Positions 1 to 17,773 of a stretch of DNA of 64,000 nt are shown here, one piece after another; position 1 is the stretch's first letter, and every line of letters starts with the position of its first letter. The position numbers and the translations under genes are program-made. The notes beneath the pieces were generated by a model. The model saw only the letters and a list, made by a program, of their open reading frames with translations. It was not told the DNA's origin and did no database searches. The stretch comes from Subtercola boreus (lineage in GTDB: Bacteria > Actinomycetota > Actinomycetes > Actinomycetales > Microbacteriaceae), in assembly GCF_006716115.1 (NCBI RefSeq), contig NZ_VFOO01000001.1:496001-560000 (forward strand). Direction: 5' to 3'.

Positions 1-1092
1 CAGGATCGCCGCCAGCACGAGCGCTCCGAGGCCCGGGGCGACGATCGACAGCAGTGCGAACCGGCTGCCGTCGTCGTACCCCTCTTCGCTGAGGTAGCCG
101 GGCAGGTAGCCGACGACCGCGATGCCGGTCGACAGGATGTACGGCACGTAGAGTGCCGCGAACGTCAGCAGGGCCGAGATCGTCACGCTGAACGGATGCC
201 GCCGGAGGATCGCCGGCACACCGATGACCGGGACGAGCTTCACGGCGATGGCGGCTCCGAGGCTGATGCCGCCGAGCACGCTCCGCCTGACCTCGCGGAA
301 GGCCCGGCCGGGACCGGCGCGGGAGAGGAGGAGCGTGGCGACCAGGAGCAGAAGCGCGGCCAGGGCATCCACATGCGAGTTCGTCACCGCCTCCGTAGCG
401 ACGAACGGGCTCCACCCCCAGAGCGCGGCCCAGCGCGGATCGATGCCCCGTCGGCGCATCGCGAGCACCAGGGCGACGGTGACACCGATGAGCAGGAGCG
501 CACCCGCGATCTGGAAGGGGGCGTACTCAACGCTTGCGGGCACGGTCAGGCGCACCCCGGCGAAGTACAACTCTGCAGCCGGTGGATAGATCGTGTTGAC
601 CTGCGGGCGGTTGATGGTCGTGCAGATGACGTCGAAGGAGGGCACGCTGAGGGTGCGCCCCACGCGCGGGCCCTCGCACTGCGGGCGCCCGTCGGCGTCG
701 GTCACCGGGGAAGGGAACAGCCAGTCGGTGCGGAACTCGGCCAACGCGTCGTCGGCAGGGGTGTAGGAGTAGGGGGACGTGCCGCCGATCTGCACGATGC
801 CGTCCCACGCGTAGCGGGCCGAGTCGGTACTCGTGTTGGGTGGGCCCGCGAGGGCGCTCCCTCCGAGCACGGCCGATCCGGCGACGACGAGCACGACGAC
901 GGCGCGCGCCGGCACCTTCTGGAGCGACCAGAGCGCGAGACCGTAGAGCGCCCAGAGTCCGATAGTGCACCAGAGGATGCCACCGGCATCCGACGGATCG
1001 AAGAACCCGACGGCGGTGACCGAGAAGGCGGTGAGGGCGGCCATCGCAGCGAGAATGACAGCCGTCAGCAGAATACGCACAAGGCCTATCAT
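1..1092 (-). CDS. GT-C (GT87/DUF2029-like) polyprenyl-phosphate glycosyltransferase, C-terminus cut by window edge
   Basis: Translating from the ATG ending at 1092 gives 364 uninterrupted residues that run off the left edge. The protein is hydrophobic, with N-terminal membrane segments, a large first external loop containing RYAWDG, SPYSYTP and IYPPAAELYF, and further helices including a WGWSPF/NSHVDALA stretch. This layout is that of integral membrane GT-C enzymes that take sugars from polyprenyl-phosphate on the outer face of the membrane. The gene lies 44 bp from and divergent to the molybdopterin oxidoreductase. It is on the same strand as, and near, the methyltransferase-DUF2064-GT2-MTAP/epimerase run, which suggests it is the final transferase for the sugar that run makes. 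By recalled synteny the counterpart would be M. tuberculosis Rv0541c. The family call is fairly sure; the sugar specificity is inferred. Confidence 0.85.
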   Translation of the reverse strand, partial: MIGLVRILLTAVILAAMAALTAFSVTAVGFFDPSDAGGILWCTIGLWALYGLALWSLQKVPARAVVVLVVAGSAVLGGSALAGPPNTSTDSARYAWDGIVQIGGTSPYSYTPADDALAEFRTDWLFPSPVTDADGRPQCEGPRVGRTLSVPSFDVICTTINRPQVNTIYPPAAELYFAGVRLTVPASVEYAPFQIAGALLLIGVTVALVLAMRRRGIDPRWAALWGWSPFVATEAVTNSHVDALAALLLLVATLLLSRAGPGRAFREVRRSVLGGISLGAAIAVKLVPVIGVPAILRRHPFSVTISALLTFAALYVPYILSTGIAVVGYLPGYLSEEGYDDGSRFALLSIVAPGLGALVLAAIL

Positions 1093-1136
1093 GGGCCCAG
1101 AGCCACCACTTCGGTGTCCCGCTCCGAAGAAGGATC

Positions 1137-2435
1137 ATGCGACGCCTGCTACTGACCCTCCAGCACGCCGTCGCCGCGCCCACCCGGAATCCCCGGCTCG
1201 CTGTGGTGATCGGTCGACTGCTCGGCATCGCCTTCCTGGTCTGCTTCGGCACCGGGCTCTACAGTCACTTCCTGCAGGAGCCGTTGCCGTGGATGCACTT
1301 CCCGACGTTCCCGGGCAACCTGTACCAGTTCACGCAGGGCATCCACATCACAGCCGGCATAGCCTGTTTCCCGCTCATCCTTGCAAAGCTCTACACGGTC
1401 TTCCCGAACCTGTTCGAGACCCCGCCGATCACCGGAATCGGGAGCCTGCTCGCCCGCGCATCCATCGCTGTGTTCGTCGGAGCGTCGCTGGTCGAGATCA
1501 CGATCGGCCTGCTGAACACCTACCAGTTCTACCCGTGGCCGTTCGGGTTCCGTGAGGTGCATTTCGCGCTGTCGTTCGTGATCATCGGGTCCCTGGCGAT
1601 CCACATCGGGGTGAAACTGCCGATCATTGCGAAGTACTGGCGGAAGCGCGACGGCTACGGCCCCGAGCTCGCCTTCGATGAGGAGGAGCGCGCGGAGATC
1701 AACGCGCCGCTGGTGGACGTACTGCCCGAGCCTCTGCAGAAGGTTCCGGGTGTGCGCCAGGCGTCGGGGCTGACCGGTCGGCTGTTCCGCTGGATCGACG
1801 CGGCGCCGGCGGACCCTATCGAGCAGCCCCGCACAGGGGCATCCACCAGCCGGCGGGGCTTCCTCGTGACGGTGGGTGTGGGCGTGGCGGCCGTCGTCGT
1901 GCTCACGGCCGGGCAGTCGTTCGCGCTCCTGCGACCGTTCAACCTGTTCGCGCCGCGGGTGAAGGGGATCGGGCCGCAGTCGGTGCCGATCAACCGCACC
2001 GCCGCCGCCGCGCAGGTCACCGAGACGGCGATGGCGCCGGACTGGGCGCTCACGATCAGCAACGGATCCCGCAGCGCGTCGTTCACCCGTGCGGCGCTCC
2101 TGGCGATGCCGCAGACCACCGTCGACCTGCCGATCGCCTGCGTCGAGGGCTGGAGCCAGCTGGCGACGTGGACGGGCGTGCGCCTGAACGACCTCGTCAG
2201 GCAGGTCGAGGCGGGGGAGGGTGCGGCGCTCCGCATCACCAGCCTCGAGAAGGAGGGCGGCTACCGGGTGACGCAGATGGGCTCCGAATACGTGGCGGAT
2301 GACTCGACCCTCGTCGCCCTGGCCCTGAACGGGGAGACGCTCGACATCGACCACGGGTACCCGGCGCGGATGATCGCGCCCGGTCGGCCCGGGGTGCTGC
2401 AGACGAAGTGGCTGAGCAGACTGGAGGTGATGTGA
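1137..2435 (+). CDS. Membrane-anchored molybdopterin-dependent oxidoreductase (sulfite oxidase/YedY-like)
   Basis: 432 residues in two parts. Residues about 20-170 hold roughly four membrane helices with histidines in or next to them (GIHITAG, EVHFALSF, AIHIGVK), resembling a b-type cytochrome domain. Then comes SRRGFLVTVGVG near residue 238, a twin-arginine-like motif followed by a hydrophobic stretch, and finally a sulfite-oxidase-type molybdopterin domain with the expected cysteine in PIACVEGW at about residue 335. The C-terminal domain therefore probably acts outside the cell with electrons passing through the N-terminal domain. A good ribosome site, AGAAGGA, precedes the ATG. The gene overlaps the next one by one base in TGATGAG context. 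Its substrate is unknown; the position beside a putative methylthio-sugar cluster suggests sulfur oxidation or reduction, but this is inference. Confidence 0.88.
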   Translation: MRRLLLTLQHAVAAPTRNPRLAVVIGRLLGIAFLVCFGTGLYSHFLQEPLPWMHFPTFPGNLYQFTQGIHITAGIACFPLILAKLYTVFPNLFETPPITGIGSLLARASIAVFVGASLVEITIGLLNTYQFYPWPFGFREVHFALSFVIIGSLAIHIGVKLPIIAKYWRKRDGYGPELAFDEEERAEINAPLVDVLPEPLQKVPGVRQASGLTGRLFRWIDAAPADPIEQPRTGASTSRRGFLVTVGVGVAAVVVLTAGQSFALLRPFNLFAPRVKGIGPQSVPINRTAAAAQVTETAMAPDWALTISNGSRSASFTRAALLAMPQTTVDLPIACVEGWSQLATWTGVRLNDLVRQVEAGEGAALRITSLEKEGGYRVTQMGSEYVADDSTLVALALNGETLDIDHGYPARMIAPGRPGVLQTKWLSRLEVM

Positions 2436-2914
2436 TGAGCGAACGTCGCGTGGATGAGAGTCGCGTGGAGGGGGGCGGCATGAGTGCACGCACGATGCGC
2501 CTCACCCGCACGATCCTGATCGTGGTCGGGGTGCTCGGGCTGGCCCTCGGGGCAGTGGTGCTGGTCTCGAAGCAGGACCTCCCGGCGATCCTCAGCGTCG
2601 CCGCGTGGATGCTCGGGGCGATCATCCTGCACGATGCCATCCTGTCGCCGATCGTGTTCCTCATCGGCGTCGTGGCGCGCCGCGCCGGGAGGCGTGTCTC
2701 GAAGGTGGTGCTCGCGATCATCCAGGGCGGAATCGTCACGGGGTGCCTGCTGATGCTGCTCGTGATCCCGGAGATCTACGCGAAGACGCTGCCGATCGCC
2801 AACGACACGGTGCTGCCCTTCGACTACGCCGCGCGGCTCGGGTTCCTGTGGCTCGGCATTGCCGCGCTGACGGCGGCGATCTGCGCGGTCTACCTGCGAG
2901 TGCGCAAACGCTAG
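2435..2914 (+). CDS. Small integral membrane protein of unknown function
   Basis: 159 residues with about four hydrophobic segments (near residues 25-50, 50-80, 85-115 and 130-150). The ATG at 2435 shares its A with the stop of the molybdopterin gene and has GGAGGTGA upstream, so translation is coupled. A second ATG at 2480, also with a purine-rich site, would give a 144-residue form. No family is recognised with confidence. The coupling suggests it works with the upstream oxidoreductase, perhaps as a membrane partner. Its stop forms the palindrome CTAG with the stop of the convergent LCP gene. Confidence 0.75.
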   Translation: MSERRVDESRVEGGGMSARTMRLTRTILIVVGVLGLALGAVVLVSKQDLPAILSVAAWMLGAIILHDAILSPIVFLIGVVARRAGRRVSKVVLAIIQGGIVTGCLLMLLVIPEIYAKTLPIANDTVLPFDYAARLGFLWLGIAALTAAICAVYLRVRKR

Positions 2915-4161
2915 TTGCCCACCGTGCAGGTCTGGTCGGCTGCCGTCTGGCCGGTCACGTTCGACGGCAGAGCCACGTCTGTGGCGGGTGTCGTCGGAGC
3001 AGCCGTCGATCCGTCGGTCGGGGTTGCGGTGTCGGACGGTATCGCGGTATCCGTCGGCGCGGCGTTGGGGTCGGTAGTAGCCGCCTCGCCCGTGCCGCCG
3101 GTCAGCGAGATCGGCTGGTTGTTCACGAGTGCGGTGTTCAGTACGCCGGCAGCGGTCTCGTCGGCGACCACGCGGTTCGAGTCGTCGGGGTCGGCCACGA
3201 CCGGGTACTGCACGAACACGAGCTTGCTGAGGTCGACGTCTTTCAGCGCGAGGGCGATCGAGACCATCGAGTTCGCATTCAGGCTCGTCGAGAGTTTCAT
3301 GTTCGCCAGGGCGGCGTTCGCGAGCTGGTACAGGGTCACCGGGTTGGCGAGAACCCCAGCGCTCGTGACCTTCCGCATGAGGGCCGACAGGAACACCTGC
3401 TGGTTGCTGATGCGGCCGAGGTCGCTGCCGTCGGCCACGCCGTGGCGGGTGCGCACGAAGGCGAGTGCTTCGTCGCCGACCAGGTTCTGGTTGCCGGCTT
3501 CGAGGTCGAGGCCCGTGAACGAGTCGACGACGGGTGAGGCGAGACAGACGGTGACACCGCCGACCGCGGTCGACATCGCCGAGACGCCGGAGAAGCTGAT
3601 CTCGGCGGCGTAGGGGATCGTCAGCCCGGTGAGGGCTTCGACCGTCAGAACGGTGCAGGAGATGCCTCCGCGGGACAGGGTGGAGTTGAAGATCTCGAAG
3701 TCGGAGGCGGAGACGGTGCCGTCACCGGTGGGCGACGGGCAGTCCGGCACCGGGCCCATCAGGTCGCGCGGGAAGCTGATCACCGCGGCACTCTTGTGAT
3801 CGGCGGAGATGTGCAGAAGGATCGTGACGTCGTTGTTGCCGGCGCCGGAGCTCGCGTCCTGGTTGGCAGCGTCCTCGAAGCCCGCGCCCTGGTCTGTGCG
3901 CGTGTCAGTGCCGACGAGCAGCAGGTTCACGCTGCCCTCGGCCGCACCGATCGCCACAGACGGGGCGTTGTCACCGTTTGCCGTCTGCAACTGGATGCCG
4001 GGCTGCGCCCGCCCGAGTGTCTGCGCGACGGCGATGGCGGCGACGGAGGTGGAGCTGACCGCGAGCACGGCGACGATGGCGAGCGCTGTGCGGAGGATCA
4101 CGCCGGCGGGGCGGCGGGCGTGCAGCCGGCCGTGGCGCACCTGGCGGTCTTCGGCGCTCAC
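2911..4161 (-). CDS. LytR-CpsA-Psr (LCP) family glycopolymer transferase
   Basis: 416 residues from a GTG. A short basic cytoplasmic tail is followed by one membrane helix (about 20-45). The extracellular LCP domain starts near LLLVGTDTRTD (residues 80-90), continues through DVTILLHIS and SFPRDL (about 111-133), and reaches TRHGVADGSDLGRISNQQ (about 238-254). These conserved Asp and Arg residues bind pyrophosphate-lipid-linked glycans. LCP enzymes move glycopolymers from undecaprenyl pyrophosphate to peptidoglycan or related acceptors. The last 60 residues are a Thr/Pro/Ala-rich low-complexity tail. The upstream frame is open for about 130 bp before a TAG but has no other ATG or GTG, so this start is preferred. 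It lies among sugar-transfer genes, which fits a wall glycan role; the polymer is unknown. Confidence 0.9.
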   Translation of the reverse strand: MSAEDRQVRHGRLHARRPAGVILRTALAIVAVLAVSSTSVAAIAVAQTLGRAQPGIQLQTANGDNAPSVAIGAAEGSVNLLLVGTDTRTDQGAGFEDAANQDASSGAGNNDVTILLHISADHKSAAVISFPRDLMGPVPDCPSPTGDGTVSASDFEIFNSTLSRGGISCTVLTVEALTGLTIPYAAEISFSGVSAMSTAVGGVTVCLASPVVDSFTGLDLEAGNQNLVGDEALAFVRTRHGVADGSDLGRISNQQVFLSALMRKVTSAGVLANPVTLYQLANAALANMKLSTSLNANSMVSIALALKDVDLSKLVFVQYPVVADPDDSNRVVADETAAGVLNTALVNNQPISLTGGTGEAATTDPNAAPTDTAIPSDTATPTDGSTAAPTTPATDVALPSNVTGQTAADQTCTVGN

Positions 4162-4384
4162 AGGGCCGCCGCCAGCGGACTGCGGGGTGCTGGCAGACCA
4201 GTGCGGGGCGTTGTCAGAGCAGTGCGGGGTGCCGGAGGCGTTCGGGTCAGTCTCATTCGCGGCCGGGGGCCCTTCAGTCAGCGATCGATCGTCACCCTAT
4301 GTTGCCGCATCCGACCGCTTCTGCGTGTCACTGCAGGGTTTTCGCCGCCAATTCCTCGGGAACGCCCAGTTTTGCGGGACAGCC

Positions 4385-5044
4385 TCAGACCCGGTGTTCG
4401 AGGCGACAGAACGAGCGGCCGTCGCGGGTCCAGCTCTGCACCGGGCCGAGTCCGAACGGGGCCGCCCGGCGGGCGAGCGCCGCACTGCCGATCTCTGCCC
4501 AGGGGAACGACGCGCTCGCGCGGCCGTCGTCGCCGACGACCGTGCAGTCGTAGGTGCGGTCGACAGCGGCGTCGTGCTGCACCTCGACGAGCACGCAGCC
4601 GGTCGGCGAGAGGAGCTCGGCGCACCGTTCGAGCAGGGCGGACGGATCGCCGCCGATACCGATGTTGCCGTCGACGAGCAGGAGCGTCATCCACTCGCCT
4701 TCGAGGGGCAGACGGTCGAAGACGGACGCCTCGAGAACCGGCACTCCCGCGGCGTGGGCGACGCCGACCGCAGCCCGCGAGACGTCGATCCCCAGCGCGT
4801 TGTAGCCCGCCGTGAGAGCGGCCCTGACCATCCGGCCCGGTCCGCAGCCGATGTCGAGCAGCGGGCCGGTGCCCTCTTCGATGAGGCTCATGTCGGTGGC
4901 GTCGGCTGCGGAACTCCAGCGGCCGACATCCATGACCAGCGACCGCGACCCGGGCGCGCCGGCGGGTACGAGCAGCAGTTGGCCGTCGTTCTGCAGGGCG
5001 CGGGCGTACGGCTCGTCGCCGCCGGCACCGAAGGTGGGGGTCAT
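4385..5044 (-). CDS. Class I SAM-dependent methyltransferase
   Basis: 219 residues. Motif I is PLLDIGCGPGR at about 61-71, followed by the acidic LGIDVSRAAV strand end, typical of Rossmann-fold AdoMet methyltransferases. The ATG sits in an ATGA overlap with the stop of the upstream DUF2064 gene, which fixes the start and implies coupling. The family includes enzymes acting on small molecules and sugars; the substrate cannot be read from the sequence. In the proposed methylthio-sugar cluster it is the least explained member, since the methylthio group already comes from methylthioadenosine. Confidence 0.85.
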   Translation of the reverse strand: MTPTFGAGGDEPYARALQNDGQLLLVPAGAPGSRSLVMDVGRWSSAADATDMSLIEEGTGPLLDIGCGPGRMVRAALTAGYNALGIDVSRAAVGVAHAAGVPVLEASVFDRLPLEGEWMTLLLVDGNIGIGGDPSALLERCAELLSPTGCVLVEVQHDAAVDRTYDCTVVGDDGRASASFPWAEIGSAALARRAAPFGLGPVQSWTRDGRSFCRLEHRV

Positions 5045-5760
5045 GCGCGGGCTCCCGTGAGTTCGCGGGCTGCGCCGAGTTCGCGGGCTGCGCCGGGCGT
5101 GCGGGTTGCGCCGGGCGTGCGGGTTGCGCCGACAGCCTGCTGCCAGGCCGTCGCGAACCGACCGTTCGGGGCGAGGCCGGCCACCAGCGATGCGTCTTCG
5201 GCCGTGTCGACGTCGGTGAGGCTGCCGAGGAGGCCCACCGTGAGGCCGGCCTCGCGCAGGCGGGCGAGTTGGATGCTGCCGGTGTCGTCCTCGGACATCG
5301 GCACTCCCTTGATGAGGCTGCCGTCGGGGTTCGCCATCGCCAGGGCCCAGAAGCCGCCGTCGGTGGAGAGGCCGAGCCAGGCGTCGGGGAGTTCCGAATC
5401 GACGCCTTGTGGCCAGGCGAGCACGGGGGCCAGGTCGCCGCGAGTGAGCTGCGGGGTGTCCATGCCGACCAGGAGGGTCGGACCCTGGCACTTGTCGAAG
5501 ATGTCGGCCAGCCGGGCATCCAGAGAACCCGTCGCCTGCGGGATGATCTCGAACCCTGCGGCCTCGGCGGGAGCGTTGGCGGGGTCGCCGTCGAACGCCA
5601 GGATGCGGCGGTCAGCCGGCAGCTCACGGATCACGTCGAGCGTGTCCCGGAGGCTTCCGGATGCCACGGCCGCCGCCTGCTCGAAGGTGAGCTCGGGAGT
5701 CAGCCGGGTCTTCACCCTCCCGGGTACGCACTCTTTTGCGATGACGATGACTGTGAGCAC
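5041..5760 (-). CDS. DUF2064 / TIGR04282-type glycosyltransferase-like protein
   Basis: 239 residues from a GTG. The N-terminus (VIVIAKECVPGRVKTRL) and the GMDTPQLTR segment near residue 99 are characteristic of the DUF2064 family, a GT-A-like fold related to nucleotidyltransferases and glycosyltransferases. It overlaps the downstream methyltransferase by four bases. The C-terminus beyond about residue 210 is a tandem array (TRTPGA and ARELGA units) encoded by four 18-bp repeats, so the original stop probably lay earlier. By recalled synteny it corresponds to mycobacterial Rv0540. Its biochemical role is not established. Confidence 0.85.
   Translation of the reverse strand: MLTVIVIAKECVPGRVKTRLTPELTFEQAAAVASGSLRDTLDVIRELPADRRILAFDGDPANAPAEAAGFEIIPQATGSLDARLADIFDKCQGPTLLVGMDTPQLTRGDLAPVLAWPQGVDSELPDAWLGLSTDGGFWALAMANPDGSLIKGVPMSEDDTGSIQLARLREAGLTVGLLGSLTDVDTAEDASLVAGLAPNGRFATAWQQAVGATRTPGATRTPGAARELGAARELTGARA
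5059..5130. repeat. 18-bp tandem repeat, four copies, in the DUF2064 coding end
   Basis: Four adjacent 18-bp units: two read GAGTTCGCGGGCTGCGCC and two GGGCGTGCGGGTTGCGCC on the plus strand. They encode six-residue repeats at the C-terminus of the minus-strand DUF2064 protein and keep the frame. Confidence 0.9.
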
Positions 5761-5949
5761 CGGGACTCCCTCTTGTGACTGCGTGGCTCTGCGATGAATG
5801 TGACTGCTGCTGTGTGCGTCTGCTGTGATTCTTGCTGTGTGCTTCTGCTGTGTGCAGAGGGGGGTTCGGAGCAGCGGGCCGGATGGATGGTTCGTACAGC
5901 CGGCGGTCAGGTTCAGCGTGCAGTCGCTGGGCAGGCGCAGCGCAGTCGA
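5761..5949. other. Spacer between GT2 and DUF2064 genes with imperfect CTGCTGTG repeats
   Basis: Between two minus-strand genes of the same block. Around 5775-5860 the strings CTGCTGTG and GCTGTGTGC recur several times in imperfect copies, giving a lower-complexity patch. No gene or clear promoter is seen. It could be a decayed tandem repeat or hold an internal promoter. Confidence 0.4.
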
Positions 5950-6699
5950 TCAGCCGCCGTTCCGTACCGCCCGGAGCAACCGGGACATGTCGCGGATCGC
6001 GCCGACCGTGCCGCGGAGCGTGCCGGTCACCTTCGAGCGCCCGACCCGGGGGGAGTAGCCGGTGTCGGTCTCGACGATGCGCCAGCCCCGGTCGTTCGTG
6101 CGCAACACCATCTCGAGCGGGTAACCGCTCCGCCGATCCTCGAGCCCGAGGGCGAGGAGGTCCGCGCGGCGCGCGACCCGCATCGGGCCGAGGTCGTGCA
6201 GCACGACTCCGGAGCGCAGGCGGATGAGGAGGCTGAGGGCGCGGTTCGCGAGCCGGGCGTGCAGGGGCCAGGATCCGCGGGCGGTGGGGCGCCGGCGGCC
6301 CAGCACGAGACGGGCGCCGGTGGGCTGTTGCGGCTGGCCCGCGGCGGAGGGTGCAGCAGCCGCTCCCAGGAGGGCGACCATACGGGGGAGCTCGGCCGGA
6401 TCCATCGACGCATCCGCATCGCAGAACGCGACAGTGTCGGCCGTCGCCGCGAGCAGGCCCGCGTGGGCGGCCGATCCGAAACCGCGACGCGGTTCGCTCA
6501 CGACGAGGGCGCCGAGGGCGCGCGCCACGGCAGCCGAGTCATCCGTCGAGCCGTTGTCGACGACGATTGCCCGGTAGCCGGCGGGCAGGCGTCCGAGAAC
6601 CCAGGGGAGGGCGGCCGCCTCGTCGAGGCAGGGGAGCACGACGTCGACGAGCGGGACAGCTGCGTCGGGGAGCGGGACAGGTGCGCCGGCGTCGGTCAT
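5950..6699 (-). CDS. GT2 family glycosyltransferase, probable polyprenyl-phosphate sugar synthase
   Basis: 249 residues with the GT-A fold: DVVLPCLDEAAALP at about 19-32, IVVDNGSTDDS at 45-55, GFGSAAHAGL at 73-82 and the metal-binding DADASMDP at about 94-101. These features match dolichyl/polyprenyl-phosphate sugar synthases that transfer an NDP-sugar to a lipid carrier. No membrane helices are evident. The ATG overlaps the stop of the MTAP-epimerase fusion by four bases, so the sugar-forming enzyme and this transferase are translationally coupled. By recalled synteny its equivalent is Rv0539, assigned to polyprenyl-phosphate methylthioxylose synthesis. Family call strong, donor sugar inferred. 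Confidence 0.88.
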   Translation of the reverse strand: MTDAGAPVPLPDAAVPLVDVVLPCLDEAAALPWVLGRLPAGYRAIVVDNGSTDDSAAVARALGALVVSEPRRGFGSAAHAGLLAATADTVAFCDADASMDPAELPRMVALLGAAAAPSAAGQPQQPTGARLVLGRRRPTARGSWPLHARLANRALSLLIRLRSGVVLHDLGPMRVARRADLLALGLEDRRSGYPLEMVLRTNDRGWRIVETDTGYSPRVGRSKVTGTLRGTVGAIRDMSRLLRAVRNGG

Positions 6700-8906
6700 C
6701 GCTCTGTCACGGCGGCTCGGAGCGGCGCGTGCGCGAACTCCCGCACGCCGTCGTCGAACGACACTGAGGGGGTCCAGCCGAGCTCTGAACGGAGACGCTC
6801 GCTCGACGCGGTGATGTGCCGCACGTCGCCGAGCCGGAACTCTCCGGTCACGACCGGTGCGAGCCCGCCCGAGAAACGGCTGAGCGCTTCGGCGAGATCG
6901 CCGATGGTGTGCACAGTCCCGCTCCCCACGTTGAAGGCGCGGAAGGTGGAATCCGGGCCTGTCGCCGTGCTGTCGAGGGCGGCGAGGTTGGCGGAGGCGA
7001 CGTCGGCCACGTGCACGAAGTCCCGCCGTTGCCGGCCGTCCTCGAAGACCCGGGGCGCCTCGCCGCGCTCGATCGCCGAGCGGAACAATGAAGCGACGCC
7101 GGCGTACGGCGTGTTCTGCGGCATGCCCGGGCCGTACACGTTGTGGTACCGGAGCGCGATGGCCCGGCCGCCGGTCGAGCGGGCCCAGGAGGTGGCGAGG
7201 TACTCCTGGGAGAGTTTGCTGGAGGCGTAGACGTTGCGGGGGTCGAGCGGGTCGTCCTCCGAGATGAGAGCGGGAACGAGCGCGAGACCTGTCGCGGGGT
7301 CGACGGGGTCGAAGCGACCCGCTTCGAGGTCGCTCTGCTGGCGCGCGGGCGGGCGGAGGGTGTCGCCGGTTCCGGATGCCCGGCGGTAGCTCCCCTCGCC
7401 GTAGACCACCATCGACGAGGCCATCACGAGCCGGCCGATGCCGGCCCGTGTCATCCCGGCCAGCAGGATTGCGGTGCCGAGCTCATTGCTGGCGACATAG
7501 TCGGGCGCGTCGAGGAAGTCGACCCCGAGCCCGACCTTGGCGGCCTGGTGGCAGACCACGGTCACACCGGCCAGCGCGGCGGCGACGGCCTGCGGGTCGG
7601 TGACGTCGCCGAGGAGGAATTCGACCCCGGGGTCGTCGTCGAAGGGCCCCGCGGCCGGGGCTCCGCCTGCCGCTGCTGGGCCTGCCGCTGCTGGGCCTGC
7701 TGCTGAGGGGACTGCCGCTGCTGGGCCTGCCGCTGCGGGGACTGCCGCGTGCACGTCGGGCCGCAGGGAGTCGAGCACGCGCACAGACCAGCCCCGGTCC
7801 CGCGCCTGCCGCACGATGGCGGAGCCGATGAACCCGGCACCGCCCGTCACGAGGAGCAGCCGGCCGGCGTCGACATCGCTGCTGCCGGTCACGACGGCTG
7901 TGCCGTCTGCCGGAACCGCGCCGTCTGCCAAAACCGCTCCGTCGGCCGGAACCGCGCCGTCTGCTGGAACCGCGCCTGCTGCCGGCACTGCGTACGCCAG
8001 TACGCGTTCCACCTCTGCGGGCGCGATCAACTCGCGGGGCTCGTAGTCGACCGGGATGGCCGCCACGATGGCCTCGATCGCGCGGATGATGCGGGGCTGG
8101 GCATCCCGCAGCCGCCGGAAGACCAGGTCGGCACTGACCGAATCGGATGACGTGTCAGCCGTCCCGTCAGCGGTCTCGTCGGAGGGCGTGTCGGCGCTCG
8201 GCGCCAGGCCCGCGTCGGCGTCCGTCACGAACGAGAGGTTCACCGTGCCGATGTTCAGTTCCGCGGCGAGGGTCACCTCGGGCACCAGCGTCATGTTCAC
8301 CGTGTGGGCTCCTGCGGCCCGGAACCAGACCGACTCGGCGCGGGTCGAGAACCGGGGGCCCTGGATCACGACGACGGTGCCTGTGGAGGAGAAGACCTCG
8401 CCCGCCGCCGTGAGCGCGCCCGCAGCGAGGCCGTGGAGGGAGGGGCAGAACGGATCCGCCGCGGCGAGGTGCTGCACGCTGCCCCGGTCGAAGAACGTGT
8501 CGGGCCGGCCCCAGGTGCGGTCGATGAACTGGTCGGTGAGCACGAGAGTGCCCGGCGGAACGTCGGGGCTGACCCCGCCGACGGCCGCTGAGGACACGAT
8601 CGCCCGCACGCCGAGCGACTTCAGCGCCCAGATGTTCGCGCGATAGTTGATCCGGTGCGGCGCGACGGAATGGTCGGCGCCGTGACGCGTCAGGAATGCC
8701 ACGCTCCGGCCATCGATCCGGCCCACCGTGATGGGGCTCGACGTCTCGCCGAACGGAGTCGGAACGGTGACCTCGACGACCCTGTCGTCGCTGCCGTCGA
8801 ACAGACTGTAGAGACCCGATCCACCGATCACAGCGATGCGCGGCTGCTCGGTCAGAGCGGGATGGGCTGCGGCGACGGGTGTGTCGGAGGGTGACGCTTC
8901 AGGCAT
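6696..8906 (-). CDS. Fusion of S-methyl-5'-thioadenosine phosphorylase with an NAD-dependent sugar epimerase/dehydratase
   Basis: 736 residues. Residues about 22-290 are a purine nucleoside phosphorylase of the MTAP type (RIAVIGGSGLYSLF, LTRHGADHSVAPH, SSAAVGG, QGPRFSTRAES, VNMTLVPE). Methylthioadenosine is split by such enzymes to adenine and methylthioribose-1-phosphate. Residues about 350-730 are an extended short-chain dehydrogenase of the NAD-epimerase family (VTGGAGFIGSAI, MASSMVVYGE, and catalytic Tyr560 and Lys564 in NVYASSKLS). An Ala/Pro/Asp-rich repeat joins them at about 305-335, and a second Ala-rich repeat of 15-bp units interrupts the Rossmann fold at about 389-414. In mycobacteria the two activities are separate adjacent genes as I recall. 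The fusion suggests channelling of methylthioribose-phosphate into an epimerised sugar. One frame is open throughout, so this is not a read-through artefact. Confidence 0.9.
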   Translation of the reverse strand: MPEASPSDTPVAAAHPALTEQPRIAVIGGSGLYSLFDGSDDRVVEVTVPTPFGETSSPITVGRIDGRSVAFLTRHGADHSVAPHRINYRANIWALKSLGVRAIVSSAAVGGVSPDVPPGTLVLTDQFIDRTWGRPDTFFDRGSVQHLAAADPFCPSLHGLAAGALTAAGEVFSSTGTVVVIQGPRFSTRAESVWFRAAGAHTVNMTLVPEVTLAAELNIGTVNLSFVTDADAGLAPSADTPSDETADGTADTSSDSVSADLVFRRLRDAQPRIIRAIEAIVAAIPVDYEPRELIAPAEVERVLAYAVPAAGAVPADGAVPADGAVLADGAVPADGTAVVTGSSDVDAGRLLLVTGGAGFIGSAIVRQARDRGWSVRVLDSLRPDVHAAVPAAAGPAAAVPSAAGPAAAGPAAAGGAPAAGPFDDDPGVEFLLGDVTDPQAVAAALAGVTVVCHQAAKVGLGVDFLDAPDYVASNELGTAILLAGMTRAGIGRLVMASSMVVYGEGSYRRASGTGDTLRPPARQQSDLEAGRFDPVDPATGLALVPALISEDDPLDPRNVYASSKLSQEYLATSWARSTGGRAIALRYHNVYGPGMPQNTPYAGVASLFRSAIERGEAPRVFEDGRQRRDFVHVADVASANLAALDSTATGPDSTFRAFNVGSGTVHTIGDLAEALSRFSGGLAPVVTGEFRLGDVRHITASSERLRSELGWTPSVSFDDGVREFAHAPLRAAVTER
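7665..7739. repeat. 15-bp tandem repeat, five copies, inside the epimerase domain
   Basis: Five units close to GCCTGCCGCTGCTGG in a row, coding on the minus strand for an Ala/Gly/Pro-rich loop inserted after the first Rossmann strands of the epimerase half. Confidence 0.9.
7902..7991. repeat. 18-bp tandem repeat, five copies, in the MTAP-epimerase linker
   Basis: Five 18-bp units close to GCCGTCTGCCGGAACCGC. On the minus strand they encode VPADGA-like hexapeptides forming the inter-domain linker of the fusion protein. Confidence 0.9.
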
Positions 8907-8941: not shown

Positions 8942-9898
8942 TCACAGGTCGTCGTCGTCGATCTCGCTGCGTTCGAAGGGAACGGCCGAACTCATCGGTG
9001 GGCGCGCGTGGCGCGGGTGCACGGAAGCGCCCTCCGCCAGGTACACCTCGTTCGGCTGGCCCGCATCGGACTGTTTGACCGACGAGATCCAGATGGACTC
9101 CGGATGCACGTCGTCTCCCGCGCGCACGTCTTCTGCCGTGCGGAGCTTCGCCACGCGGTGGATGAGCGTGCCGAAGCCGATCTTCACGAGAACGTCGGCG
9201 ACGCAGAGGGACACCTGCATCGTGGTGGCCCAGCCGCCGCCGTCGCCGAACACCTGGATCAGGTAGACCAGCGGGTAGACCACCCAGCCGGAGAGCATCA
9301 GGATCGTCGCCGAGCGCATCCAGGAGGCTGCCTGGGTCGTCAGCGAGGGAAGCGATCGGCGCACGCACCGGATGAGCAACACGTTCGTGATGATCCAGAA
9401 GACGCCACTGATACCGCCCCAGATCAGGAGCTGGGCCTGGCTCTGGCCCTCATCGATCACGATTGCGCCGAGGAAACCACTGAAGATCATGGCGAACGAG
9501 CTGGCACCCACGATGAGCTGCGTACGGCGGAGCGCCGGTCCGACGACACTGCAGACGGCGAGCAGCTCGAACGTCAGCAGGGGAACGGTGACCGACCAGT
9601 CGGTGTACCGCAGGGCGAACATCATCACCGCATTGCCGTTCGGCACGTAGGTGTCGCCCGTGAGCGTGTAGCTCGACAGGAAGGTGGTGATCAGAAGCAG
9701 GTACGACACGAACGCGACGCCCGTGACGGTCAGTCTGGCCACAACGGCCGGCCGGAAACGGGATCCGACCTCCGACCGGGTCGTCACGCTCCGGGCGAAC
9801 CCGGCGAGCAGCGCCAAGCCTGCGACGACGAGGAAATAGAGCGTGAGAAGGTACTGCGGCTGGCTGAGGGTCGCCAGCCAGGGGGCCGAAGCGGTCAT
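8942..9898 (-). CDS. Microbial rhodopsin, DTE-type light-driven proton pump
   Basis: 318 residues with seven predicted helices. Helix C reads RYTDWSVTVPLLTFEL, giving Arg97, Asp100 (proton acceptor), Thr104 and Glu111 (proton donor), the DTE set of proteorhodopsin/xanthorhodopsin pumps. Helix F has the WVVYP retinal-pocket motif (Trp205-Pro209). Helix G has Asp235 and the Schiff-base Lys239 in ADVLVKIGFG. Leu108 sits at the proteorhodopsin spectral tuning site, predicting green absorption. The helix B position that carries the His partner of the acceptor in proteorhodopsin aligns by eye with Ser65. A soluble tail of about 70 residues follows helix G, with a DDDD patch at the very end. It lies 4 bp after the DUF7882 gene. 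No retinal synthesis genes are in the window. Confidence 0.93.
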   Translation of the reverse strand: MTASAPWLATLSQPQYLLTLYFLVVAGLALLAGFARSVTTRSEVGSRFRPAVVARLTVTGVAFVSYLLLITTFLSSYTLTGDTYVPNGNAVMMFALRYTDWSVTVPLLTFELLAVCSVVGPALRRTQLIVGASSFAMIFSGFLGAIVIDEGQSQAQLLIWGGISGVFWIITNVLLIRCVRRSLPSLTTQAASWMRSATILMLSGWVVYPLVYLIQVFGDGGGWATTMQVSLCVADVLVKIGFGTLIHRVAKLRTAEDVRAGDDVHPESIWISSVKQSDAGQPNEVYLAEGASVHPRHARPPMSSAVPFERSEIDDDDL

Positions 9899-9902
9899 CC
9901 GG

Positions 9903-10241
9903 TCAACTCCTCGACTTGGTCATCGACGAACTGTGCGGAAGGCTTCCGGGTTCGGGGAGGAAGAAAAGTCCGGCCCCGCTGTTGGCGGACTCCATCAGCA
10001 CCTCGATCCACTCGCGGTTGATGGAGGGAATGCGGCTGCCGAAGTACCGATAGTAGAGAGTGCTCGACGGGTCGAGCCAGATGGAGCTCCGGCCGCTACC
10101 CACGTCGGCGGAGTCGTTCCACGAGAACACGAAACTCTCGCGGCGGCGGAGTTTCGCGGTGATCACGATCTGGAGATGCTGGAGAGCCCGGTCATCGAAA
10201 CTGATCTCGATGCTCGGGTTGCCGTAGAGCAGAAGGCCCAA
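9903..10241 (-). CDS. DUF7882-type small protein (often labelled ATP-dependent DNA ligase in Microbacteriaceae)
   Basis: 112 residues from a TTG (the frame begins LLLYGNPSIEISFDDRAL). The conserved body includes DRALQHLQIVITAKLRRRESF, FSWNDS, GRSSIWLDPS, FGSRIPSINREWIEVL and SANSGAGL. This small family is widespread in Microbacteriaceae, and its usual DNA-ligase label is unsupported by any ligase motif. Function unknown. The stop is 4 bp before the rhodopsin ATG, so the two genes are very likely co-translated. Confidence 0.8.
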   Translation of the reverse strand: MGLLLYGNPSIEISFDDRALQHLQIVITAKLRRRESFVFSWNDSADVGSGRSSIWLDPSSTLYYRYFGSRIPSINREWIEVLMESANSGAGLFFLPEPGSLPHSSSMTKSRS

Positions 10242-15323: not shown

Positions 15324-17773
15324 GCGGCACGCGCATCCGCCCCTCCTCCCGGCGGCCCGGAGGCAGCAGACTCACCGGCCGTCGGGGTTCCAGCGACGAA
15401 TTCACCCGGGCCTGGGCCGGATTCGACGAAGCCAGGGCGACACCCGCCGGCACGACCCCGCGGGGCCCGGTCCACAGTGACGGGGTCGGCAGAGCCGACG
15501 ACCACGACCGCCTCACCCGCACCGAACCGGGCCGCGCCGGCCAGGCTGCCGTCTCGCCGATCCTCTTCCTGCTGATCATGCTCCCGGTGGGCGGGCTCGC
15601 CCCGCTTCTGTCGGGGTCGGGCTGGTGGTGGAACACTGCCCTCGTCGTCGCCCTGGTGCTCGGAGCGGCGCTCCTCGTGCGCCTCCTCCCGCTCCCTGCC
15701 GCTGCCCCACCGATCGCGGCCCTGGTTGCCTGGGCGATCACGGTCACCGTCATGTTCGCGCCGGGCGACGCCCTGTTCGGCTTCCTTCCGACCCTCGGCA
15801 CGCTCGACACGATCCGTTCCGGCCTCGCCGACGCGGGGGAGTCGATCGCCCTGCAGAGCGTCCCCGCCGACCCCGTGCAGCCGATCGTGCTGCTGCTGGC
15901 CCTCACCGTGGGGCTCCTCGCCGTGCTCGCCGACTCGCTCGTCTTCGGGCTCCGGATGCCGGCTCTCGCCGGTCTCGTGCCCGTGTCGATCCTGGTCGTG
16001 CCCTACACGGTGCGCCAGCAGGAGTTCGACATCGTGCTGTTCGTCGTTCTCGCCGCGACCTACCTGCTGCTGCTCTTCGCGGCGGGCCGCTTCGGCATCG
16101 GCCTCCGCCTCCGGCAGGGGGAGAACATCCGTGCCGGGCGGAATGCCGGGCGCGCCGTGCTCTCCGGTGCGCTCGCCGTGCTGCTCGCCTGCTTCCTCCC
16201 CGGGGTGACGCCGGGGCTCACGCCCGGCTCGTTCCGCCCGGCCCAGTCGGCGCAGCTGCCTTCGGTCTATTCCAGCGGTGTGGATCCGTCGATCCAGCTC
16301 AGCCAGGACCTCCGCCGCACGAACCCCGTGCTCTCCCTCACCTACAGCACGACCTCGGCCTCGGGCCTCTATCTGAAGCTCGTGAACCTCTCCGATTTCA
16401 CCACCAGCCCCTGGCAGCCCGAAGACCTCTCCGAAGCGGCGCCGCTCGGGTCGGGCTTCGCCGCGCCCGACGGTCTCTCGGCCGATGTCGCCATCCAGCC
16501 GGTCACCACCGACGTCTCGGTGACGGGGCTCCGGAGCGACTGGCTGCCCGTGCCGTATCCCGAGACCGACGTCACGGGCCTCGACGGCGACTGGACGGTG
16601 AGCCCGGGCAGCCTCACGGTGACCGGCGACAACACCAACACGACAGGCCAGGACTACTCGGTCACGAGCCTGCTCGTACAACCCACCCCCGCGCAGCTCG
16701 CAGCTTCCGCCTCCACGGTTCCGGATGCCCTGCAGAACTACCTGCGGCTGCCGAGGTCGATCTCCCCGATCATCCGCAACACCGCCCTAGAGGTGACGGG
16801 CAGTGCGGCGAGCAACTACGACAAGGCTGTCGCACTGCAGAGCTACTTCACGTCGGGTGCGTTCGAGTACTCGGTCTCGGCGCCCGTGGAGGGCCACTAC
16901 GACGGGGGCAACTTCGCCGCGGTCGCCACGTTCCTGTCGGCCAAGAGCGGGTATTGCATCCATTTCGCTTCGGCGATGGCCGTCATGGCGCGTACCCTCG
17001 GCATCCCGTCGCGCATCGCGATCGGCTACCACCCGGGTGGGGCCGGAACGCGCGAGTCAGACGATCTGACCACGTTCCAGGTCTACAGCGACCAGTTGCA
17101 CGCCTGGCCCGAGCTCTGGTTCGACGGCATCGGCTGGCTGGCGTTCGAGCCGACTCCGGGCCTCGGGCTGACGCCACCGGAGTACTCCCTGCCGAACTAC
17201 ACCGGAGCCGCCGCCACGGCCCCGCTCCGGGACGGTGCCACCTCGTCGGCGGTGCCCACGACCCCGCGCGCGGCCCCCCAGCTCGACAGTGGCGACGTTG
17301 CAACCAGTGACCCGCAGGTGCAGGCGGCCCAGCAGGGCCGCGCCTGGCTGATCGCGGCCGGCATCGCGGTGCTCGTCATCCTGCTCGCGCTCGTGCCCGC
17401 CGGGTGGCGCCGGCTCCGTCGACGGCGTCGCCTCGCCGCGATGATGGTGGATGACCGGCCGGCCTCGATCGGCTGGCAGGAGGTCAGGGACTCCGCGAAG
17501 GACTACCGCTTCGAGCTGCTGGACGGTGAGACGGCCCGCGGTTTCGCGGCCCGACTCGGGTCTCTCTACCACATGCCCGCGGAGCCGATCGAGGAGTTGC
17601 TCGTCGCGGTCGAGCGTGAACAGTTCGCGCGGCCCGGCACGGCGGGGCAGCCAGACCGCCTGGTGTCAGACGTCGAGCAGATCATCCGTGCGCTGAGTGC
17701 GCAGGCGAGCACAGCGGATGATCGGCGGGCGCTCCTCCTGCCCACGTCGTTGCTCGGCCGTCCCGGGCGCTGA
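15320..17773 (+). CDS. TgpA-like transmembrane transglutaminase-domain protein
   Basis: 817 residues from a GTG overlapping the DUF58 stop (GTGA). An Arg-rich cytoplasmic N-terminus of about 75 residues is followed by six or so membrane helices to about residue 300, then an external region. The transglutaminase core has Cys546 in KSGYCIHFASAMA, His594 in QLHAWPELW and the following Asp in WFDGIGWLAFEPTPG. One more helix (about 673-695) and a DUF4129-like cytosolic tail end the protein. This is the standard third partner of MoxR-DUF58 operons, probably a periplasm-side peptidase or crosslinking enzyme; the substrate is unknown. Confidence 0.93.
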   Translation: MSGTRIRPSSRRPGGSRLTGRRGSSDEFTRAWAGFDEARATPAGTTPRGPVHSDGVGRADDHDRLTRTEPGRAGQAAVSPILFLLIMLPVGGLAPLLSGSGWWWNTALVVALVLGAALLVRLLPLPAAAPPIAALVAWAITVTVMFAPGDALFGFLPTLGTLDTIRSGLADAGESIALQSVPADPVQPIVLLLALTVGLLAVLADSLVFGLRMPALAGLVPVSILVVPYTVRQQEFDIVLFVVLAATYLLLLFAAGRFGIGLRLRQGENIRAGRNAGRAVLSGALAVLLACFLPGVTPGLTPGSFRPAQSAQLPSVYSSGVDPSIQLSQDLRRTNPVLSLTYSTTSASGLYLKLVNLSDFTTSPWQPEDLSEAAPLGSGFAAPDGLSADVAIQPVTTDVSVTGLRSDWLPVPYPETDVTGLDGDWTVSPGSLTVTGDNTNTTGQDYSVTSLLVQPTPAQLAASASTVPDALQNYLRLPRSISPIIRNTALEVTGSAASNYDKAVALQSYFTSGAFEYSVSAPVEGHYDGGNFAAVATFLSAKSGYCIHFASAMAVMARTLGIPSRIAIGYHPGGAGTRESDDLTTFQVYSDQLHAWPELWFDGIGWLAFEPTPGLGLTPPEYSLPNYTGAAATAPLRDGATSSAVPTTPRAAPQLDSGDVATSDPQVQAAQQGRAWLIAAGIAVLVILLALVPAGWRRLRRRRRLAAMMVDDRPASIGWQEVRDSAKDYRFELLDGETARGFAARLGSLYHMPAEPIEELLVAVEREQFARPGTAGQPDRLVSDVEQIIRALSAQASTADDRRALLLPTSLLGRPGR

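Follow-up and report, generated by a model that had tools for sequence, protein, structure and literature searches.

The first genes of the window, as we call the whole 64,000-nucleotide stretch of Subtercola boreus DNA that was analysed, raise the question of whether a member of the Microbacteriaceae decorates its envelope with a sugar related to methylthioxylose (MTX), described in parts of the literature as a unique residue and regarded as special to tubercle bacilli. Rv0535, Rv0536 and Rv0540 presumably have roles in the mycobacterial MTX capping locus. A passage of PMC8780516 names MtxS (Rv0539) as the polyprenyl-phosphate-MTX synthase and MtxT (Rv0541c) as the MTX transferase. In the passages concerned, M. 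tuberculosis lipoarabinomannan (LAM) contains both MTX and its sulfoxide, MSX (PMC8531672), the presence of MTX in the LAM of non-tuberculous mycobacteria is not apparent (PMC10675199), and the existence of MTX addition outside LAM assembly is called unclear (PMC11127046). The literature matches listed include no report of the cluster outside mycobacteria. The window carries the following genes:

6696..8906, minus strand: MTAP-epimerase fusion, 736 aa (NF005876, 3.2e-79; PF01370, 2.2e-45)
5950..6699, minus strand: GT2, putative MtxS-like polyprenyl-phosphate sugar synthase (PF00535, 1.7e-16)
5041..5760, minus strand: DUF2064 protein, nucleotidyltransferase/GT-A-like (PF09837, 4.5e-16)
4385..5044, minus strand: class I SAM-dependent methyltransferase (PF08241, 2.3e-7)
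2911..4161, minus strand: LytR-CpsA-Psr (LCP) ligase (PF03816, 9e-36)
2408..2914, plus strand: small membrane protein, with a later ATG at 2480 (no Pfam or NCBIfam match at 0.01)
1137..2435, plus strand: molybdopterin oxidoreductase with a cytochrome-b561-like N-terminal membrane domain (PF00174, 1.1e-23)
1..1092, then 335 bp outside the window, minus strand: GT-C transferase, GT87-like, 475 aa (PF09594, 32.8 bits)

The full GT-C gene occupies positions 495665-497092 of the contig (L004:865-2292 in the extended locus). A preliminary description had recognised the MTAP-epimerase fusion, the GT2, the DUF2064 protein, the class I methyltransferase and the GT-C, all of which are borne out by domain profile matches on the minus strand; it had left out the molybdopterin oxidoreductase and the small membrane protein, both recurrent members of the cluster. 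Its picture of genes mostly overlapping by four bases had to be given up: only the epimerase/GT2 and DUF2064/methyltransferase junctions do so (at the latter, the methyltransferase start ATG overlaps the DUF2064 stop), a 189 bp gap separates the GT2 gene from the DUF2064 gene, and the methyltransferase is followed by the LCP gene (4161-2911), with two plus-strand genes between the latter and the GT-C.

The fusion protein consists of an MTAP (residues ~20-290), a repeat-rich linker and an SDR epimerase (~348-722). Its MTAP half resembles solved MTAPs (1v4n, 9.6e-57) and scores 265.8 bits against NF005876, under the cut-off of 306; 58 of 59 family MTAPs, including that of the window, fall below the curated cut-off. 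The RHG, PRFSTRAE and TDxD positions are at least 95% conserved across 27 family rows. Fusion as a conserved trait was rejected: among the 40 same-family loci examined, MTAP and epimerase are separate frames in all 28 others having both, so that, among the loci compared, the fusion is known from the window locus only. In the sister genome G153 the two open frames overlap. The DUF2064 protein matches the F420 enzyme CofC (7.6e-7) and, by profile, PDB 3cgx (1.5e-21).

No curated NCBIfam model scores above its cut-off for the GT2. Its best matches reach E <= 9.9e-60 in 71 of 249 family genomes and E >= 6e-19 in all others, a wide score gap dividing the cluster GT2 from other family GT2s. The cluster is not special to this family, the GT2 being present in 171 of the 394 class genomes. 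In a Mycobacterium-like genus, equated with Mycobacterium on account of its position amid named Mycobacterium loci in the GT2 tree, 98 of 128 genomes carry it. The window GT2 is 52-53% identical to three Mycobacterium-type GT2s and shares one tree, of a quick kind, with the named Mycobacterium GT2s. Identities between M. szulgai and window proteins are 50% for MTAP, 48% for the epimerase, 53% for GT2 and 34% for DUF2064. In 65 named Mycobacterium or Mycolicibacterium loci, some of them cut by contig ends, the GT2 is accompanied by MTAP (52), epimerase (53) and DUF2064 (64). The earlier claim that this is the same set as in M. tuberculosis thus stands, in gene sets and identities, for the donor-building half (MTAP, epimerase, GT2 and DUF2064), whose probable correspondence to the mycobacterial MTX locus is supported by sequence comparison. 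From gene order, the window GT2 would correspond to Rv0539, the named loci containing no M. tuberculosis record.

The claim fails for the transferase that should determine the acceptor, because the window GT-C lies outside the MtxT family. It passes the Pfam GT87 gathering score (32.8 bits, cut-off 25), and homology to mycobacterial MtxT was rejected (profile-profile probability 0.6 of 100, E 0.1). Among 100 GT2-bearing loci, 48 carry a GT87 and 45 an MtxT, none both and 7 neither, and the GT2 tree requires 11 exchanges between the two types. Within the family, the GT87 GT-C occurs in 63 of 71 GT2-positive and 0 of 178 GT2-negative genomes, and the remaining eight positives all have MtxT, which was sought in the fetched loci only. 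Since the last transferase differs from mycobacterial MtxT, the shared donor probably goes to another acceptor here. The GT87 family was founded on the mannosyltransferase PimE, so the window GT-C may yet belong with ordinary mannosyltransferases, the grouping that the preliminary description had named as telling against its reading. It is not special to the cluster, a second GT87 lying elsewhere in the window's genome.

These 100 loci, with stretches of 4-18 kb, were hand-picked from the GT2 hits to cover a wide range (40 came from the 71 family positives and 60 from class or genus hits, several shortened by contig ends), and four further family loci were added later. Scored with profiles built for this analysis at thresholds that we set, the stretches hold the DUF2064 gene in 98 cases, the epimerase in 95, the methyltransferase in 82, the oxidoreductase in 77 and the small membrane protein in 75. 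The neighbouring LCP gene, which serves as a built-in control, is on 4 of the same 100, indicating that linkage of the other members is more than chance. The LCP gene, confined to the window's genus in all four, was accordingly dismissed as a general component, as was the upstream rhodopsin gene, present in 2 of 40 loci. Clustering had hinted at menA as a common neighbour; a direct search placed it in 10 Mycobacterium-like class loci, 50 named loci and 0 of 40 family loci, and it too was discarded. The set recurs beside the GT2 in many same-family loci, and although gene order and strand vary between loci, it stays together. Complete cassettes are also found on plasmids, one of them in Arthrobacter sp. 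U41. A GtrA gene adjoins the Rhodococcus cassette.

Members located apart still co-occur genome-wide. The oxidoreductase is present in 70 of 71 GT2-positive family genomes versus 0 of 178 GT2-negative ones, although such genome-wide counts score 6-10 first-look candidates per genome, and absences are therefore as good as that first look. The enzyme carries a Tat signal (TIGR01409, 20.8 bits against 16.7), a twin-arginine motif by which it is probably exported, and a PF01292 match below the cut-off (2.6e-5, 24.5 bits of 30.1). Its Cys335, R239-R240 and His70/142/156 are invariant in 23 rows. The small membrane protein has an HD motif whose H and D are invariant in 22 aligned rows. On the stretches of the 65 named mycobacterial loci, the methyltransferase is found in 24, the oxidoreductase in 17 and the small membrane protein in 16.

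Taken together, the cluster probably encodes an MTX-type, methylthio-pentose glycan decoration with an exchangeable last step. In favour of this reading stand the MtxS/MtxT precedent, the kinship of the GT2s, the co-occurrence of MTAP, the lack of an mtnA match, the GT-C exchange, the plasmid cassettes and the presence of both MTX and MSX in LAM. We infer the following chemical steps, their order and the acceptor. MTAP would cleave 5'-methylthioadenosine (MTA) to adenine and 5-methylthioribose-1-phosphate, which the nucleotidyltransferase-like DUF2064 protein would activate; the SDR epimerase would invert one centre, from ribo to xylo as in MTX, and the GT2 would transfer the sugar onto polyprenyl phosphate. 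Once flipped, the polyprenyl-linked sugar would be joined by the GT-C, on the outer side of the membrane, to a glycan of the envelope. A probable task of the exported molybdopterin enzyme is to oxidise or reduce the sulphur (methylthio/sulfoxide), and the methyltransferase may add a methyl group. Against this reading, the oxidoreductase is only remotely like sulfite oxidases and MsrP, and is not on the stretch in 48 of the 65 mycobacterial loci. Also against it count the sub-cut-off scores of nearly all family MTAPs, the second GT87 in the genome and the lack of an identified flippase in the window, where neither the nine window proteins scanned nor the GT-C match PF04138 (GtrA).

The distribution of MTAP also speaks on both sides. 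At the thresholds used, it is missing from 12 of the 71 GT2-positive family genomes and from 36 of the 171 in the class, and it is linked to the GT2 on 53 of 100 stretches and in 0 of 10 named non-mycobacterial loci. The MTAP profile has no match in the 47 other stretches, and candidate replacements were rejected: 19 proteins from 11 MTAP-less loci proved to be transporters, regulators, redox proteins, an acid-phosphatase-like protein, or unmatched. With neither MTAP nor a recognised replacement in some loci, the sugar cannot be methylthio by the MTAP route everywhere. The same decoration logic might thus serve a sugar other than methylthio-xylose, for example another 5-modified or 5-deoxy pentose (such as one from 5'-deoxyadenosine), with MTAP feeding some lineages only. 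The MTAP-less genomes, the retention of most remaining cluster genes in MTAP-less loci, and the additional methyltransferase and oxidoreductase, not on the stretch in many mycobacterial loci, fit this idea, which we nonetheless judge rather unlikely, for family MTAP never occurs without the GT2 (59 of 71 positive versus 0 of 178 negative genomes) and that of the window lies inside the cluster with its motif positions kept.

That same strict co-occurrence argues against an MTAP that only salvages adenine or detoxifies MTA and happens to lie next to an ordinary mannosyl-type pathway (GT2 and GT87) with which it has nothing to do. MTAPs in other settings do serve salvage, GT87 includes PimE, and MTAP is found in 56 of 223 GT2-negative genomes of the class (against 135 of 171 positives). 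The fusion of MTAP to the epimerase in the window, its presence with the rest of the set on three plasmid cassettes and the lack of a match to the methylthioribose-1-phosphate isomerase MtnA (TIGR00512, 1e-5) in the window's genome, when 9 of 14 control genomes have one, make this improbable. Mere inherited linkage without common function, in favour of which vertical inheritance inside the family speaks, is scarcely credible given that the set is kept together as order and strand vary, that separated members such as the oxidoreductase still co-occur, and that the set is found on plasmids.

Since numerous relatives and some plasmids carry this gene set, a sugar hitherto seen as peculiar to tubercle bacilli may be more widespread. 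Should the wider cluster yield MTX itself or something close to it, methylthio-sugars would be frequent decorations of the actinobacterial envelope, epitope specificity would need checking against environmental actinobacteria, and MTA would gain a fate besides methionine salvage. The exchanged last transferase constitutes a natural experiment in acceptor choice. More tentatively, and with considerable doubt, one may imagine an actinobacteria-wide, also plasmid-borne system that turns waste MTA into a methylthio-sugar cap for glycans of the cell envelope, in which two dissimilar GT-Cs, exchanged many times over, choose the acceptor, an exported molybdoenzyme switches the sulphur of the cap between thioether and sulfoxide, and the mycobacterial LAM cap is a stripped-down case.

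Like the mycobacterial MTX capping locus, the window brings together MTAP, SDR epimerase, GT2 and DUF2064, with the GT2s in one tree. It differs in its GT87-like final transferase in place of MtxT, in the fusion of MTAP to the epimerase, and in the addition of a methyltransferase, an oxidoreductase and a small membrane protein, which only some mycobacterial MTX loci have on the stretch. With the three-component pentofuranose systems, as outlined in passages of PMC11127046, the window would share a polyprenyl-phosphate pentose donor and a GT-C acting outside; those systems use GtrA and a PRPP-derived donor, whereas the window proteins scanned give no GtrA match and the donor would come from MTA. 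Among NCBIfam models, the arsenosugar-type TIGR04282 fits the DUF2064 protein best, below the cut-off (104.5 of 134 bits), and its counterpart TIGR04283 matches the GT2, likewise below (35.1 of 182 bits). Finally, the oxidoreductase shares the Oxidored_molyb domain, a conserved Cys and the Tat motif with the MsrP and sulfite oxidase molybdoenzymes, and is set apart from them by its fused cytochrome-b561-like domain and by scores far under the curated NCBIfam cut-offs (SoxC, 49 of 420 bits; MsrP, 28.1 of 207 bits).

All five genes that the preliminary description had assigned to a putative glycan-capping cluster, encoding an MTAP-epimerase fusion, a GT2 protein, a DUF2064 protein, a methyltransferase and a GT-C transferase, are present at the left end of the window (bases 496001-560000 of contig 1 in a 4.2 Mb genome), but the four-base overlaps said to join most of them occur at two junctions only. 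The locus comprises:

8906-6696, minus strand: MTAP-epimerase fusion
6699-5950, minus strand: GT2
5760-5041, minus strand: DUF2064 protein
5044-4385, minus strand: class I methyltransferase
4161-2911, minus strand: LCP ligase
2408-2914, plus strand: small membrane protein, between LCP ligase and GT-C
1137-2435, plus strand: molybdopterin oxidoreductase, between LCP ligase and GT-C
1092 to 335 bp beyond the window edge, minus strand: GT-C, 475 aa

Upstream of the MTAP fusion, and ending 35 bp short of it, is a bacteriorhodopsin-like gene (8942-9898, minus strand; PF01036, 8.2e-27), which adjoins a gene for a DUF7882 protein (9903-10241, minus strand; PF25355, 4.7e-37); a rhodopsin gene lies near GT2 in 2 of 40 family loci. 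Directly downstream of GT-C, outside the window, is a lipoprotein-like gene (G000:C1:494802-495473, or L004:2-673 on the stretch extending the window leftwards).

The GT2 search of 249 genomes of the family (Microbacteriaceae) was bimodal, with 71 genomes giving a best match at E <= 9.9e-60 (60-100% identity) and the remainder 6e-19 or worse. The ~18 kb fetched around GT2 for 40 of these 71 contained the epimerase (38), DUF2064 (39), oxidoreductase (39), small membrane protein (39), methyltransferase (33), GT87-like GT-C, the type found in the window (32), MTAP (28) and LCP (4) genes. Genome-wide, MTAP (59/71 versus 0/178), the oxidoreductase (70/71 versus 0/178) and the GT87-like GT-C (63/71 versus 0/178) were confined to genomes with GT2, and thus all three accompany GT2 within the family; in G176, the sole GT2-bearing genome where the oxidoreductase search found no match, the assembly is 86% complete and in 490 contigs. 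Response regulator and sensor kinase genes, possible candidate regulators, were found on 48 and 46, respectively, of 104 stretches (100 chosen GT2-bearing loci and four from plasmids).

In the proposed order of steps, MTAP would convert 5'-methylthioadenosine (MTA) to methylthioribose-1-phosphate, which the DUF2064 protein would activate (its profile matches the solved 3cgx, a 'putative nucleotide-diphospho-sugar transferase', and weakly CofC). The SDR epimerase, whose nearest solved chains are NAD-dependent epimerases including UDP-glucose 4-epimerases, would then epimerise the sugar, GT2 would load it onto polyprenyl phosphate and GT-C would pass it from the polyprenyl carrier to a glycan; the window yielded no flippase. 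The MTAP half of the fusion retains the motif positions of MTAPs and scores 265.8 bits against a curated cut-off of 306; 58 of the family's 59 MTAPs fall short of it, this one included. The two halves, joined in the window by a repeat-rich linker, are separate frames in all 28 other family loci where both were found, overlapping in the closest relative (G153), so that the fusion is so far private to the window. A search for mtnA was negative in the window's genome and positive in 9 of 14 control genomes, leaving no recognised standard salvage route there for methylthioribose-1-phosphate. The MTAP-GT2 link is looser over the class (135/171 genomes with GT2 versus 56/223 without). With match thresholds of 1e-25 and 1e-45, MTAP was not detected in 12 of 71 family and 36 of 171 class genomes with GT2; none of 10 named non-mycobacterial loci had a linked MTAP, and no substitute was recognised in the MTAP-less loci examined. 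Such genomes must make another sugar or draw it from another source, unless an unrecognised enzyme splits MTA there.

Across the class, the GT2 profile matched 171 of 394 genomes and 49 of 138 genera at 1e-40. A single-GT2 search matched 98 of the 128 genomes in genus g102; this genus is equated with Mycobacterium, since in the GT2 tree its rows fall among named Mycobacterium loci. Among 80 named loci from one scan, 75 carried GT2: 65 from Mycobacterium/Mycolicibacterium and 10 from Nocardia (2), Lentzea, Actinomycetospora, Amycolatopsis, Actinokineospora, Actinopolymorpha, Streptosporangiaceae (1), Streptomyces and Dactylosporangium; our profile did not find it in the 5 non-actinobacterial named loci. 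The typical Mycobacterium locus consists of MTAP, epimerase, a ~4 kb gap, GT2, DUF2064 and, last, an opposite-strand GT-C, sometimes with methyltransferase and oxidoreductase genes between the latter two, an order agreeing with that of Rv0535-Rv0541c. The proposed identity of the two gene sets holds for MTAP, epimerase, GT2 and DUF2064 (50%, 48%, 53% and 34% identical to M. szulgai, respectively) but not for GT-C, which is unlike the mycobacterial enzyme. One genome (G501, stretch L128) has two divergent GT2-DUF2064-methyltransferase-oxidoreductase sets with a single epimerase between them.

Indeed, the mycobacterial GT-C (MtxT) gave no blastp match to the window GT-C, a probability of 0.2 in profile-sequence comparison, and 0.6 of 100 (E 0.1) between profiles of 48 and 45 sequences. 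The 100 stretches (40 family, 13 Mycobacteriaceae-like, 47 others) carried GT87-like GT-C (48), MtxT (45) or neither (7: L047, L056, L058, L063, L109, L118, L120), never both; the first four of the seven have a GT87-like gene elsewhere in the genome. The 75 named loci had MtxT (72), GT87 (1) or neither (2, both short), again never both, and all eight family genomes with GT2 and no GT87-like type carry MtxT in the fetched loci. Placed on the GT2 tree (114 rows), GT-C type must have changed 11 times, with starred branches forcing at least 5 of the changes, which argues that the last transferase has been exchanged repeatedly while the donor enzymes were retained. The two GT-C enzymes might do the same job; one donor serving several acceptors is the simplest reading of the exchange. 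GT87 is not peculiar to the cluster, since the same genome has a second match outside the window (G000:C1:826878-827708; 42.8 bits), stronger than that of the cluster GT-C itself.

GT2 matched seven records in the plasmid collection, one of them 11.9 Mb long, and four were examined. The conjugative plasmid of Arthrobacter sp. U41 carries the complete set (GT2, DUF2064, methyltransferase, GT87, MTAP, epimerase, small membrane protein, oxidoreductase), flanked by exact 893-bp inverted repeats (L249:7922-8814 and, by calculation, 16447-17339) with transposase genes nearby. The repeats contain a lipoprotein-like gene without a Pfam match, homologous to that downstream of the window GT-C; homologues occur on 24 of the 100 stretches and near the Arthrobacter and Rhodococcus plasmid cassettes. 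The Rhodococcus sp. AQ5-07 plasmid has the full set with MtxT replacing GT87 and a GtrA gene close by; on a Kitasatospora plasmid, the set includes GT87. The Mycobacteroides abscessus plasmid carries GT2, DUF2064, methyltransferase, oxidoreductase, small membrane protein and MtxT; in the 9 kb fetched to each side, neither MTAP nor the epimerase gave a match.

The oxidoreductase carries a twin-arginine motif, followed by an Oxidored_molyb domain in which one Cys is invariant. Three His of its membrane domain are invariant and a fourth, His44, is conserved in the family; the catalytic part of the enzyme would face outside. Methylthioxylose (MTX) and its sulfoxide both occur on M. tuberculosis lipoarabinomannan (LAM), according to PMC8531672, making a putative sulphur redox role plausible; the oxidoreductase gene lies on the stretch in just 17 of the 65 named mycobacterial loci. 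The presence of an LCP gene in the window's genus is a weak hint that the acceptor may be a wall glycopolymer. The literature found contains no chemistry for a non-mycobacterial cluster, and no report of one was among the matches listed in the open literature. PMC11127046 calls the occurrence of MTX addition outside LAM assembly unclear, and PMC8780516 identifies MtxS as Rv0539 and MtxT as Rv0541c; the donor logic is already known from mycobacteria.
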